Below, piece by piece: positions 1 through 4,828 of a stretch of 35,551 nucleotides of DNA. The notes under the pieces were generated by a model. It did no database searches and was not told the DNA's origin. It saw nothing but the letters and a program-made list of their open reading frames with translations. Where the stretch lies: positions 1-35,551 of the forward strand of contig JAGVGD010000133.1 of assembly GCA_020057245.1 (NCBI GenBank). Direction: 5' to 3'. How positions within the stretch are numbered: position 1 is the first letter of the stretch; every line of letters begins with the position of its first letter. This DNA is from Thiobacillus sp. (GTDB lineage Bacteria; Pseudomonadota; Gammaproteobacteria; Burkholderiales; Thiobacillaceae). A program made the translations under genes and the position numbers.

Positions 1-2679
1 CAAGCCGACGAAACCGGCCTGCGGGCGCGAGAAGGTGACGCCGCAGTCCTTGTCCTGGTCGTATTCGGACGCGTGGCCCAGCAGGTTGTTGGCGGCGACG
101 CGGCCCTGCGTGGCGGCGGTGTGGGCGAGCATGTAGCCGCCGACCACGTCGCCCACCGCGTAGATGTGCGGCACGCTGGTCTGGCCGCGCGTATTGACCT
201 TGATCGCGGCGCCGTCGAGTTCGACGCCAGCCTTGTCGATGCCGAGCTTGCTGGTGTCGGGACGCTTGCCGGTGGCCATCAGCACGATGTCGCAGGCAAA
301 GGTGTGCGCTTCTCCGGCGGCGTTTTTGTAGGCGACGCTCATGCTGCCCGGCGTACCTGTCGCGCCATCGATCGACGCGTTGGTGACGACGGTGATTTCC
401 TTTTCCAGCAGGCCGATCAGGGTCTTGCCGATCTCGTCCTCGATTTCGGCGAGGATGCGCTCGTTGCGTTCCAGCATCAGGATTTCGGTGCCGAAGTCGC
501 GGAAGATCTGCGCCATTTCGACGCCGATGACGCCGCCGCCGATGATCGCCATTTTCTTCGGCGGTTGGGCCAGGTTCCAGATGGTGTCGGAGGTGACGAC
601 GCCACCCGTCGCCAGGTTCTCGCGCGCGCCTGGGATCGGCGGCACGAAAGCGGGTGCGCCGGTGGCGATGACGGCTGCGCCGAAGCTGACCGTGTAGGGC
701 TCGCCTTCAACCGGGGTGATCTTCAGGGTGTGGGCGTCGACGAATTCGCCGAAGCCTTCACGCACGTCGATCTTCATGCCCTTGTCGGCCTTGAGCGCCA
801 TTTCGCCGCGGCTGGTTTGCACCCAGCGGCGGTGCTTTTCCACCTGCGCCCAGTTGAGTGCCGGGGTCTGGGTGCCGTCGACGCCGATTTCAGCATCGTG
901 GCTGCGGTTGCGGATGACGTCGGCCGCCGCGCGCCAGGCCTTGGAAGGAATACAGCCGCGCCACAGGCATTCGCCGCCGGGGAAGGGCTCGTTGTTGACC
1001 ATCATGACCTTGATGCCGTGGTCGGCCAGATCGCGCGCGCAATCCTCGCCGCCGGGACCGCCGCCAACAACGACGACCGGGAAGTCCCAATTACCCTCGG
1101 GGATGGGCGACACCGGTGCGCTGTGGGTGGCGGGGGCGGCCACGGATTCCGCCACTGCGCCGCCCGCGCTGAGCCAGGTGTCGGGCGCTTCGATGGTTTG
1201 TTTCAGCGCATTGAGATACAGCGCCACTTCGGCGCCGTTCAGCACGCGGTGGTCGCAGGTCAGGGTGAACGGGGTGCCCTGCGGGCCATTCGCAGCAATC
1301 GCCAGAATCGCGGCGATGCCGGGCGTGGGGATGGCGGTGAAGTGCGACACGCCCATCATGCCCATATTGGAAATGGTGAAGGTGGGGTTGGCGTATTCGG
1401 CCGGCGCGAGCTTGCGCACGCGGGCGCGTTCCACCAGTCCGGCCCAGTCGCCTTGCAGCGCGGCCAGGGATTTCTTTTCGATACCGTGAAGGATGGGTAC
1501 CACCAGGCCGCCGTCGTTCGAGGTGACGGCGACGCCGAAGTCGTGGTTGCTGCGCTCGACCAGTTTGTCGATCGGCTGGTATGCCCAGTTCATGCGGGGG
1601 AATTTCGCCATCGCCACCGAGCAGGCTTTGGCGATCGCCACCGTGACCGACACTTTGTTGGCCTTGGCGGCTGCGGTCAGCGCGGCGGTGCTGATATTCA
1701 TTGTGGCGTGGAAGGTCGGCAGCGTCAGCGAGGTGGTCATCGCGTGGCTGACGGCTTTTTCCATCGAGGTCATGGCGCGGCCCTGGCCGGGTACATCCAC
1801 CTGCGGTAGCGAATGGGCGACGGCCTGCATCGACGGCCGTGCGCGGGCGACGTCGGCGGCGATGATCACGCCGGCCGGGCCACTGCCGGCCAAGCCGCTG
1901 AGGTCGACATTCAGTTGTGCCGCCACCTTGCGTGCATAGGGACTGGCCTGACGGCCTTGCGGGCGCGCCACCGGCGCGGCGTTGCCGCTGGCGGCGATTT
2001 GCGCCGGGGTGGTTTTGGGCGTGGGGATATGCGCCGGCTTGTCGGCTGCGTGCGGGGCGACCTGATGCGATTCCTTGACCTTGTGGTCGGCGCCGATGGT
2101 GACGCCGGTATCGTTGGCCTTGGACGCGTCGTCGACGATGAAGCCCATCGGATGGCCGACCTCGACCACGCTGCCGATGTCGGCGATGGGGCCGGAGAGG
2201 AAACCGTCCTGGAAGACCTCGACGTCCATGATGGCCTTGTCAGTCTCCACCGTGGCGACGATGTCGCCGCGCTTGATGACATCGCCCGGCTGTTTTTCCC
2301 AGGTGACGACCACGCCTTCGGTCATGGTGTCGGACAGCTGCGGCATCACGATGGGCGTGCCGGCATGGTGCGGAATCATCTCGGTCTGCGCGAGTTCGGC
2401 CACCACTTCGCCGGCAGCAATCGCCATGTCGCCCGCCGTGTCGGTGATGTAGCCGAGCGCCGCGCCGACGGCAATGGTCGCGCCGATATCCGCCAGCGGG
2501 CCGGCCAGATAACCGGCCTTGAACACCTCGACATCCATGATGGCCTTGTCGGTTTCCACCGTGGCGACGATATCGCCGCGCTCGACGCGATCGCCGGCTT
2601 GTTTTTCCCAGGTGACGACCACGCCCTCGGTCATGGTGTCCGAGAGTTGGGGCATCGTAATTGCGTAGTGTTGGGACAT
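1..2679 (-). CDS. pdhC: Pyruvate dehydrogenase E2-E3 fusion (dihydrolipoyl acetyltransferase + dihydrolipoyl dehydrogenase), partial at C-terminus
   Basis: I translated the minus strand codon by codon from the ATG at 2679 and met no stop in 893 codons to the window edge. Domains in order: lipoyl domain 1 (about residues 5-80, lipoyl Lys45 in ETDKA), lipoyl domain 2 (about 108-183, Lys148), an E1/E3-binding type domain (about 246-281, SPYARKVAAQLNVDLSG), an E2 catalytic domain to about 505 with DHRVLNG at 476-482, a short Ala/Pro linker, then an E3 flavoprotein: FAD fold GGGPGG at 539, redox pair C571/C576 in GGECLWRGCIPSK, NAD fold GGGVIG at 714, and YAVGDV at 840. The E3 dimerisation domain lies outside the window. 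The E2 motif has Asn481 where HxxxDG enzymes usually have Asp. No ATG occurs between residue 442 (E2 core) and 559 (inside the E3 Rossmann fold), so a separate E3 start is unlikely. It should convert acetyl groups and reoxidise lipoate in the cytoplasmic PDH complex. AGGA precedes the ATG. Confidence 0.93.
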   Translation of the reverse strand, partial: MSQHYAITMPQLSDTMTEGVVVTWEKQAGDRVERGDIVATVETDKAIMDVEVFKAGYLAGPLADIGATIAVGAALGYITDTAGDMAIAAGEVVAELAQTEMIPHHAGTPIVMPQLSDTMTEGVVVTWEKQPGDVIKRGDIVATVETDKAIMDVEVFQDGFLSGPIADIGSVVEVGHPMGFIVDDASKANDTGVTIGADHKVKESHQVAPHAADKPAHIPTPKTTPAQIAASGNAAPVARPQGRQASPYARKVAAQLNVDLSGLAGSGPAGVIIAADVARARPSMQAVAHSLPQVDVPGQGRAMTSMEKAVSHAMTTSLTLPTFHATMNISTAALTAAAKANKVSVTVAIAKACSVAMAKFPRMNWAYQPIDKLVERSNHDFGVAVTSNDGGLVVPILHGIEKKSLAALQGDWAGLVERARVRKLAPAEYANPTFTISNMGMMGVSHFTAIPTPGIAAILAIAANGPQGTPFTLTCDHRVLNGAEVALYLNALKQTIEAPDTWLSAGGAVAESVAAPATHSAPVSPIPEGNWDFPVVVVGGGPGGEDCARDLADHGIKVMMVNNEPFPGGECLWRGCIPSKAWRAAADVIRNRSHDAEIGVDGTQTPALNWAQVEKHRRWVQTSRGEMALKADKGMKIDVREGFGEFVDAHTLKITPVEGEPYTVSFGAAVIATGAPAFVPPIPGARENLATGGVVTSDTIWNLAQPPKKMAIIGGGVIGVEMAQIFRDFGTEILMLERNERILAEIEDEIGKTLIGLLEKEITVVTNASIDGATGTPGSMSVAYKNAAGEAHTFACDIVLMATGKRPDTSKLGIDKAGVELDGAAIKVNTRGQTSVPHIYAVGDVVGGYMLAHTAATQGRVAANNLLGHASEYDQDKDCGVTFSRPQAGFVGL

Positions 2680-2703
2680 GCTTGGATCCTAAGTCTTTGT
2701 TTA

Positions 2704-2778
2704 TCCGCGAAGGACGCGAAGGGACGCGAAGAAAACCTTATAGAAGATATCTTCGCGATCCTTCGCGTCCTTCGCGGA
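2704..2778. repeat. Palindromic intergenic repeat between pdhB and the E2-E3 gene
   Basis: A 28-bp inverted repeat (2704-2731 against 2751-2778, two mismatches) surrounds a 19-base AT-rich loop. Each arm is built from iterations of CGCGAAGGA-type units. It fills most of the 109-bp gap between the pdhB stop and the E2-E3 start and would form a stable hairpin in the operon mRNA. It looks like a REP-type intergenic element and could also act as an attenuating or mRNA-stabilising hairpin; the sequence alone does not decide which. Confidence 0.8.
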
Positions 2779-2788
2779 CAAAAAGGTT

Positions 2789-3772
2789 TTACGCTTTTCC
2801 GAACAGTTTCAGAACGGCCTTGACCACATCTTCGTGGTCGGGAATGGCTGCTTTTTCCAGCGTGTGGTTGTACGGCTGCGGCACCAGCGCCGAGTGCACG
2901 CGCACCGGGGCGGCGTCCAGTTCGAAGAAGCATTCTTCGTTGATGATGGCGATGATTTCGGCGCCGACGCCCACCGGCGCTTCGTCTTCTTCGGCGATGA
3001 CGGCACGGTGGGTTTTGCTGACCGACTGCTTGATGCCGGCGCGATCCAGCGGCGACAGCGAATAGAGATCGATGACTTCAGCCGAGATGCCGTACTGCTT
3101 GTCGAGGATTTCGGCGGCCTTCAGACACCAGTGCACCGAGATGTTGTAGCCGAACAGGGTGACATCGGTGCCGGAGCGTGCGATGTCGGAGCCTTCCAGC
3201 GGGTGGAAATATTCGCTGTCAGGCACTTCGCCCTTCATGTTGTACATCAGCTCGTGTTCGTTGATGAACACCGGGTCGTTGCTGCGGATGGCCGATTTCA
3301 GCAGACCGTAGGCCTGCTTGGGGTTGGACGGCGTGACCACGCGCAAGCCGGCGATGCCCATGAACACTTTTTCCATCCGGGCCGAGTGCTGCGCGCCGAG
3401 CTGGTGCGCCGCACCGCCGGCCGAGCGGAACACGCACGGCGCTTCGAGCTGGCCGCCCGACATGTAGCGGATCTTGGCGGCGGAGTTGAACATCTGGTCC
3501 ATTGCCAGCCAGGCGAAGTTGACCGACATGATTTCGACGATCGGACGCACGCCGAGGAAAGAGGCGCCGATGGCCAGTCCGGTGAAGCCGCCTTCGGAAA
3601 TCGGCGTATCCATCACCCGCAAGGGGCCGTATTTTTCGAACAGACCTTTGGTCGCCTTGTAGGTGCCACCGGCCACGCCGATGTCTTCGCCCATACAGAT
3701 GACCATCGGGTCGCGTGCCATTTCTTCGTCGTGAGCGCGCTGGATCGCTTCCCACAGCATGATTTGAGCCAT
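2789..3772 (-). CDS. pdhB: Pyruvate dehydrogenase E1 component, beta subunit
   Basis: This 327-residue protein is the usual length for an E1-beta subunit of the alpha2beta2 type. It starts MAQIMLWEAIQRAHDEEMARD and carries the conserved MGEDIGVAGG stretch (about residues 27-36), DTPISEGGFTGLAIG and the transketolase C-terminal region with a conserved EEDEAPVG. With the alpha subunit it forms the thiamine diphosphate site that decarboxylates pyruvate (or a related 2-oxoacid) and acetylates the E2 lipoyl arm. The ATG follows a strong AAAGGAAA. It sits 54 bp downstream of the alpha gene and upstream of the E2-E3 fusion on the same strand, so the three form one operon. An acetoin or branched-chain dehydrogenase role is possible from sequence alone. 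Confidence 0.92.
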   Translation of the reverse strand: MAQIMLWEAIQRAHDEEMARDPMVICMGEDIGVAGGTYKATKGLFEKYGPLRVMDTPISEGGFTGLAIGASFLGVRPIVEIMSVNFAWLAMDQMFNSAAKIRYMSGGQLEAPCVFRSAGGAAHQLGAQHSARMEKVFMGIAGLRVVTPSNPKQAYGLLKSAIRSNDPVFINEHELMYNMKGEVPDSEYFHPLEGSDIARSGTDVTLFGYNISVHWCLKAAEILDKQYGISAEVIDLYSLSPLDRAGIKQSVSKTHRAVIAEEDEAPVGVGAEIIAIINEECFFELDAAPVRVHSALVPQPYNHTLEKAAIPDHEDVVKAVLKLFGKA

Positions 3773-3826: not shown

Positions 3827-4828
3827 TCAGGCGGCTTGGCCGGTAAGCCATTGCTGCTGGCTTGCGCGGTCGGCGAGAACGTATTTTTCGAGGTCTTCGA
3901 CGCGCGGTTCAGGCGACTCTTCGGAGAACTTGATGACTTCGTTTTCGATGTAGGCGTCGGTTTCTTTTTCCAGCGCCTCGTAGGCTTCCATGGTCAGCTC
4001 GCCGGCCGCAATCAGGCGGTCGCGCAGGATGAAGATGGGGTCGCGCTGCTTCCACAGTTCTTCTTCCTCGCGCGTACGGTAGCCGCGCGAATCCGACATC
4101 GAGTGGCCGCGATAGCGGTAGGTCATGAGTTCGAGGAAGTAGGGGCCCTTGCCCGAGCGGACGTGGTCGACCGCCTTGCGGGCGTGTTCGTAGACGACTT
4201 CCACATCCTGGCCGTCGCACTCGGATGCCTCGATGTTGTAGGCCGCCACGCGCTTGTGCTGGTGGACCACGGCGGTGGAGCGCTCGATCGAAGTGCCGAT
4301 GCCGTAGCGGTTGTTTTCGCAGACGAACAGCACTGGCAGGTTCCACAGCGCAGCCATGTTGAGCGTTTCGTGGAACACGCCCTGGTTGTTGGCCGCATCA
4401 CCGAGGAAGCAGATGGCGATTTCGTCGCCGCCCTTCAGCTGGATCGCTTTGGCGATGCCGGCGGCCAGCGGGAAGGGGCCGCCGACCAGTGCATAGCCGC
4501 CCATGAAACGGTGCGCCGCATCGAAGATGTGCATCGAACCGCCGCGGCCCTTGGAGGAACCGGTTTCCTTGCCGTACAGCTCGGCCATCACTGCTTTCGG
4601 GTCGGAGCCGCATTTGATCGCGTGGACGTGATCGCGGTAGCCGGTGATCACGTAATCGTGGCCGGGACGGGCGGCTTCCATCACGCCGTTGCAGCACGCT
4701 TCCTGGCCGGGATAGAGGTGGAGAAAACCGCCAATCTTGCGTTCGATATAGGCCTGGTAGCAGCGCTCTTCAAAACGGCGATGCAATACCATTTCGCGTA
4801 AGACGCGTTTCTTGTCTTCGATCTTCAT
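3827..4828 (-). CDS. pdhA: Pyruvate dehydrogenase E1 component, alpha subunit
   Basis: This 333-residue protein is a typical short bacterial E1-alpha. It shows the thiamine diphosphate/Mg motif from Gly143-Asp144 (GDAANNQGVFHETLN), the FLHLYPGQEA entry region, GRGGSMH and the YRYRGHSMSD phosphorylation-loop-like segment. I chose the ATG at 4828 (MKIEDKKRVLREM). A GTG at 4930 would extend the frame through the intergenic promoter region with no conserved sequence, so it is rejected. First gene of the operon pdhA-pdhB-E2E3. PDH alpha is more likely than acetoin or branched-chain enzymes because of the whole cluster, but substrate specificity cannot be proven here. Confidence 0.92.
   Translation of the reverse strand: MKIEDKKRVLREMVLHRRFEERCYQAYIERKIGGFLHLYPGQEACCNGVMEAARPGHDYVITGYRDHVHAIKCGSDPKAVMAELYGKETGSSKGRGGSMHIFDAAHRFMGGYALVGGPFPLAAGIAKAIQLKGGDEIAICFLGDAANNQGVFHETLNMAALWNLPVLFVCENNRYGIGTSIERSTAVVHQHKRVAAYNIEASECDGQDVEVVYEHARKAVDHVRSGKGPYFLELMTYRYRGHSMSDSRGYRTREEEELWKQRDPIFILRDRLIAAGELTMEAYEALEKETDAYIENEVIKFSEESPEPRVEDLEKYVLADRASQQQWLTGQAA

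Follow-up and report, generated by a model that had tools for sequence, protein, structure and literature searches.

In the textbook pyruvate dehydrogenase (PDH), E3 is loosely held by a large self-assembling core, and active sites require that E2 forms trimers and E3 forms dimers. A stretch of 35,551 nucleotides from Thiobacillus sp. (contig JAGVGD010000133.1; hereafter the window) raises the question of whether both enzymes can be made as a single chain and, if so, what kind of complex such a chain would build. The minus strand of the window, read from position 2679 to position 1, is a single open frame of 893 residues without a stop codon. Along this frame, Pfam matches and the ORF translation place two lipoyl domains, a peripheral-subunit-binding domain (PSBD), an E2 core and an E3 region, in this order (Table 1). 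A first-pass annotation, made from the sequence alone, had proposed that E2 and E3 of PDH are joined here in one polypeptide; the frame and the order of the Pfam domains agree with this proposal, as do the relatives described below. The genome is a draft MAG of 2.59 Mb and 81.9% completeness. The contig ends within the fusion gene, at position 1 of the window, so that the C-terminus of E3 is missing. The leftward extension recommended in the first-pass annotation could be made on a protein of Thiobacillus sp. MAG_77 (L098), which is 98% identical to the window protein and 1000 residues long. Its E3 end is complete, with a Pyr_redox_dim domain at residues 881-986 and an HPTQTE motif. The dimerisation domain (PF02852) was found in both L098 and a second relative (L099), in the region that lies past the window edge, and full-length fusion proteins of relatives generally have about 1000 residues, with the E3 dimerisation domain and HPTxxE.

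Table 1. Positions of the fusion gene, its parts and the neighbouring E1 genes in the window.
Feature	Position	Strand	Basis
pdhA, PDH E1 alpha; start 4828 chosen from the open frame	3827..4828	-	TIGR03182 above cut-off
pdhB, PDH E1 beta	2789..3772	-	NF006667 above cut-off
E2-E3 fusion gene, 5' 893 codons; 3' end past the contig edge	1..2679	-	Open frame, Pfam
Lipoyl domain 1, residues 7-77	2449..2661	-	PF00364
Lipoyl domain 2, residues 110-178	2146..2352	-	Two PF00364 stretches; range taken from L098
PSBD lacking the Arg and Lys of GR..K, residues 244-277	1849..1950	-	PF02817 (E3_binding)
E2 catalytic core with short H2 region and interior hairpin, residues 302-503	1171..1776	-	PF00198 (2-oxoacid_dh)
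E2 active-site motif DHRVLNG, Asn replacing the usual Asp of HxxxDG	1234..1254	-	Motif search
E2-E3 linker, residues 504-532	1084..1170	-	Motif positions, AF2 model
E3 FAD and NAD domains, residues 533-859	103..1083	-	PF07992 (Pyr_redox_2), fold comparison
Redox-active disulfide of E3, motif GGECLWRGCIPSK, starting at residue 568	940..978	-	Motif search
Beginning of the E3 dimerisation domain, truncated where the contig ends	1..39	-	L098 Pyr_redox_dim from 881

The same architecture, for which a search had been advised, proved to be widespread. Among 60 genomes searched, one frame runs across the E2-E3 junction in 31 of the 36 that belong to the same genus (the window's own included). The remaining five comprise one in which the gene is split over frames (G008), two in which only the E3 end was found (G017, G027) and two without such a gene (G007, G022). 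In the same search, a genome of another family (G043) gave a junction-spanning frame at 62% identity. Within the window's class, a spanning frame is present in at least 75 of 369 genomes, the window's own included; this is a lower bound, as at most two candidates were scored per genome. Four genomes were kept out of the 75 carriers and are therefore counted among the 294 others: G092 is frameshifted, with one piece crossing the junction, G268 has an unfused E2, G274 has an E3 fragment at a contig edge, and in G344, assembled as one contig at 72% completeness, the two pieces of the gene (L155 and L156) lie 2.1 Mb apart with the break inside the E2 core, owing either to a rearrangement or to an assembly error. 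When 398 genomes of the phylum were sampled, the matches at E ≤ 1e-80 contained the fusion only in G000 (the window's own genome), G626 and G043, and no fused match was found beyond the class. Finally, a pattern scan was run over the whole GTDB genome collection, and the best 80 of 330 loci, which were kept, include Thiobacillus thioparus DSM 505, T. denitrificans RG, Sulfuriferula multivorans TTN and a Thiohalobacter MAG.

Altogether we collected 161 fused frames (gene repeats included, the window's own being counted three times), corresponding to 122 distinct E2core-E3 segments. The fused frame is kept in relatives as distant as about 54-55% identity, which takes it beyond chance. The draft state of the MAG and the contig edge within the gene could by themselves suggest that a sequencing or assembly error had joined two genes, yet with 122 distinct fused segments, those of T. 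thioparus DSM 505 and T. denitrificans RG among them, this explanation deserves practically no credence. An indel or misassembly at the linker, named in the first-pass annotation as a refutation, is excluded because one and the same frame recurs across many independent genomes. We conclude that the E2-E3 fusion is genuine and old.

A single frame could nevertheless yield separate E2 and E3 proteins, by internal re-initiation or by proteolysis, and the fusion would then exist on paper only. The linker of the window has three GTG codons in frame, and the linkers of 68 of the 122 distinct relatives contain an ATG, preceded or not by an SD-like sequence (found in 11 of them). However, 17 of the 122 linkers have no ATG, GTG or TTG at all, and the combination of a start codon with an SD-like sequence occurs in only 14 of the 122 and not in the window, which makes separate proteins very unlikely. 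An internal E3 start was considered as such and rejected, no conserved start codon with SD being found in the 122 linkers. In the window translation, the Met residues near the junction are 439, 441, 442 and then 559, and the absence of an ATG between residues 442 and 559, noticed in the first reading, thus stands.

Trees were built from the E2 core (50 rows) and from E3 (73 rows, quick method). In the E2-core tree, the 31 fused rows fall into one group, which also holds an unfused E2 (L154, from G268) that is sister to a fused E2 of the same family with a support of 100/99. In the E3 tree, the 30 fused rows make up one side of a branch. Both trees fit a single origin of the fusion and one visible later loss. 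The unfused E2 (L154:1584-2894) has one lipoyl domain, ends directly past the knob position defined below (ENPGRWLIRGIS) and is not followed by an E3 half. About 2.7 kb containing unrelated genes, one of them read as GGDEF-EAL-like, separates it from the preceding pdhB. Its E3 half was most likely lost secondarily.

We next turn to the identity of the complex. The gene order pdhA-pdhB had been noted from the start; it was found in the window, and the pair is directly upstream of the fusion in 69 of the 70 loci having at least 2.6 kb of upstream sequence. The sole exception is L075, where the frame is broken inside the gene. The window protein has both a PSBD (PF02817 above cut-off) and a CAT-like core (PF00198), as in a PDH E2p. 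The active-site HxxxDG is changed to Asn at the Asp position; as Asn is also found there in the PDH E2p of Azotobacter vinelandii (PMC8421416), this change by itself does not speak against a PDH E2p. The complex might instead be another 2-oxoacid dehydrogenase (acetoin or branched-chain), as could be read from this Asn and from an E2 half that scores under the NCBI equivalog cut-off for PDH E2 (TIGR01349; 283 vs 445 bits in L098). We see a slim chance of this, since pdhA and pdhB of the window both exceed the NCBI cut-offs for PDH E1-alpha and E1-beta, the best-scoring E2 models and solved chains for the E2 half are those of PDH E2, and the Asn is shared with Azotobacter PDH E2. E1 alpha, E1 beta and the fused E2-E3, which form one cluster, are thus predicted to encode a pyruvate dehydrogenase.

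Compared with known enzymes, the E2 half resembles mitochondrial-type PDH E2p in its lipoyl-PSBD-CAT-like core order, its catalytic His and its PDH E1 partners, but differs by the C-terminal E3, the shortened H2 region and hairpin, the active-site Asn and a PSBD without GR..K. The E3 half is similar to Lpd in its CxxxxC and HPTxxE motifs, its FAD, NAD and dimerisation domains and its fold (Z 45); unlike Lpd, it is not encoded by a free gene, forms its own clade marked by GGECLWRGC and lies below the NCBI equivalog cut-off TIGR01350 (362 vs 408.8 bits in L098). Best matches and solved chains also relate it to the E3 part of Neisseria P64k. That protein carries a lipoyl domain and E3 within one chain and is not known to have a PSBD or an E2 core.

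The catalytic residues are well kept across the fused proteins. GGECLWRGC[IV]PSK, with the CxxxxC disulfide, is present in all 122 distinct segments, as is the E2 catalytic His in the form HR[VIL]xNG, with Asp at the Asn position in none of them (0/122). The HPTxxE motif (His-Glu dyad) was found in 113 of 122, the nine misses being cut or frameshifted upstream of it, and the glycine patterns fit in 116 of 122 segments for the FAD site and in 121 of 122 for the NAD site. Among the 161 fused frames, the TDKA lipoyl motif occurs twice in 142, once in 10, three times in two and not at all in seven; two lipoyl domains are present in 144, one in 10 and none in seven, the latter located mostly at contig edges or frameshifts. 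Eight fused frames (L158-L161 and L167-L170) have one lipoyl domain in place of two.

In canonical E2 cores, a 3-10 helix at the C-terminus (H7, the knob) links one trimer to the next by entering a socket of the partner, to which H2, H7 and the beginning of H4 contribute; H2 of bovine E2p is 14 residues long, and an interior hairpin connects strands I2 and J of E2p (PMC9681731). The strand-to-H3 span, which holds H2, measures 18-20 residues in 117 of the 122 fused E2 cores (five not measured), compared with 27-29 in 21 of 26 unfused E2s, a set mixing E2p and E2o. The other five unfused cores consist of L154 (20 residues), one value of 57 due to a misplaced motif and three not measured. Likewise, the interior hairpin spans 21 residues in 121 of 122 fused cores (one not measured), compared with 32-33 in 23 of the 26 members of the same E2p and E2o mixture, where one has 21 (again L154) and two were not measured. 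At the end of E2, ExPxxW is present in 122 of 122 fused segments, with a hydrophobic residue next to it in most aligned rows. From this motif to the GGG motif of E3, the distance is 20 to 46 residues in the 116 segments where the latter motif fits; the minimum of 20 is found in 36 of the 116, and Thiobacillus reaches 46.

These measurements were complemented by an AF2 model of the monomer (762 residues, 89 rows, pLDDT 91.9); an earlier full-length model (16 rows, pLDDT 67.6) was set aside as poor. In the model used, H2 has nine residues and pLDDT drops below 50 in the linker only. Fold comparison matched the E3 half to solved E3s at Z 45 and gave E3-type chains only (E3, mercuric reductase); for the E2 half, the comparison with known E2s was made through sequence and literature. 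Because the spans are short and the C-terminus runs on into E3, we infer that the socket and the hairpin are reduced and that the knob position has probably been turned into a tether to E3. The altered core geometry expected in the first-pass annotation gains support from this at the level of sequence, through the short H2 region and hairpin and the knob position that continues into E3. Since ExPxxW (122/122) and a mostly hydrophobic next residue remain at the E2 C-terminus, some knob-like packing may persist there.

We propose that such a chain would work as follows. Two swinging lipoyl domains would take acetyl groups from E1, pass them to CoA in the trimeric E2 core and be re-oxidised by the E3 half, active as a dimer. 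Given that H2 is shortened and that the C-terminal knob position serves as a tether, E2 trimers would be linked via E3 dimers and no longer via knob-and-socket contacts. The smallest closed form would be hexameric, with two E2 trimers bridged by three E3 dimers, by analogy with OdhA, a fusion of E2o to a dimeric E1o whose six chains form two trimers and three dimers (PMC10415282). The likeness to actinobacterial OdhA/KGD concerns an E2 catalytic domain C-terminally fused to a dimeric partner enzyme and three-fold and two-fold demands combined in one chain (PMC10415282). The two systems differ in that the partner here is E3 and not E1, the E2 is of the PDH type, the lipoyl domains are kept in the chain and the E1 of the fusion is encoded apart, by pdhA and pdhB. 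On this analogy, an OdhA-like hexamer would be the likeliest assembly of the E2-E3 fusion.

The fusion could also be real and yet leave the canonical cage of 24 or 60 E2 subunits intact, with E3 dimers hanging outside by the linker. The retention of ExPxxW in 122 of 122 segments, with a hydrophobic residue next in most rows, would suit such a cage, and the up to 46 residues between W and GGG in Thiobacillus could suffice for a hanging E3. However, the H2 region, which forms one of the socket walls, is short in each of the 117 fused cores for which a value was obtained, as is the interior hairpin in each of 121, and just 20 residues separate W from the GGG of E3 in 36 of 116. We consider a canonical cage unlikely. 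A genuine and old E2p-E3 fusion with the proposed working and trimer-dimer assembly is, as a whole, the best explanation, with a probability of roughly 0.7. At somewhat less than even odds, we tentatively put forward a more specific version, namely a cage-less PDH with E3 dimers as edges (a D3 hexamer or an E3-edged polyhedron), whose E3 in some carriers would also serve glycine cleavage and 2-oxoglutarate dehydrogenase in trans.

The PSBD bears on how E3 is held. Helix 1 of this domain is reported to recruit E3 through its charged side chains (PMC9974300). In the PSBD alignment, the usual Arg and Lys of GR..K are absent from 63 of 63 fused rows, the Arg position being occupied by Val, Glu, Ala, Ile, Leu or Met and the Lys position by Ala, Gly or Ser; unfused rows keep the Arg in 12 of 13 and the Lys in 13 of 13. 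Since both residues are gone, docking of E3 on the PSBD of the fusion may be weakened. An overall loss of charge was also considered and rejected: mean net charge is +0.94 in the 63 fused rows vs +0.38 in eight unfused ones, and the GR..K positions alone differ. The Arg of helix 1 is present throughout the fused rows (63 of 63). The early guess that the PSBD had been released from holding E3 is therefore borne out only in part: the conserved Arg and Lys are lost, but the helix-1 Arg is retained and the domain is no less basic overall.

A literature search on such fusions and on PDH of these organisms returned, among the entries listed, no title or abstract start naming a 2-oxoacid dehydrogenase in which E2 and E3 are fused. 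Solved chains matched at E ≤ 1e-60 number 48, and each of them covers at most one of the two halves. PDH genes of Thiobacillus ferrooxidans were reportedly studied in the 1990s. The fusion genes themselves are already in public genomes; what appears new relative to the searched literature is the architecture of an enzyme whose predicted function is that of PDH. If true, this would be a second independent departure from the textbook PDH plan, after that of Actinobacteria, in a lineage that welded E3 to E2 with the core-building parts worn down. Such a lineage would offer a direct way to examine the need for a cage and the reason for the usual sharing of E3.

Where the fused E3 is the sole E3, it would also serve glycine cleavage in trans and possibly 2-oxoglutarate dehydrogenase. 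In a genome of the same genus assembled as one contig at 99% completeness (G024), TIGR01350 matches nothing but the fused E3 at E ≤ 1e-30, yet the genome has gcvH and gcvP. In the window genome (81.9% complete), the only other TIGR01350 match is a mercuric reductase. This incomplete assembly also has a sucA-sucB pair without an adjoining E3 gene (L261:4511-8288), and its SucB, of 365 residues, has no Pfam E3_binding match. The 2-oxoglutarate dehydrogenase of the window genome may rely on the fused E3. Not all carriers depend on the fusion for their E3, since a separate standard E3 above the TIGR01350 cut-off was found in five of 15 genomes checked (G005, G013, G016, G093 and G139). In three of the same genus (L174 of G005, L175 of G016 and L176 of G013), the second standard E3 lies right beside GcvH-like genes, which possibly encode lipoate-binding proteins of sulfur oxidation.

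PDH architecture may also be linked to way of life: RuBisCO is encoded in 71 of the 75 fusion carriers vs 111 of the 294 other genomes, and sucA in 39 of 75 vs 241 of 294, these being raw genome counts that include kin, with carriers numbering at least 75.

The gap between pdhB and the fusion gene is filled by a long palindrome (window 2690-2785; RNA fold -61.7 kcal/mol, z -10.6), and Rfam gave nothing at the gathering threshold for window 2600-2900. In the window's genome (G000), further copies were found at three places, all of them gaps of the glycine cleavage operon. A tie of the palindrome to lipoyl operons, striking in G000, was rejected, the palindrome being an interspersed repeat of the genus, with a match in 25 of 33 genomes searched and up to 70 matches per genome in relatives.
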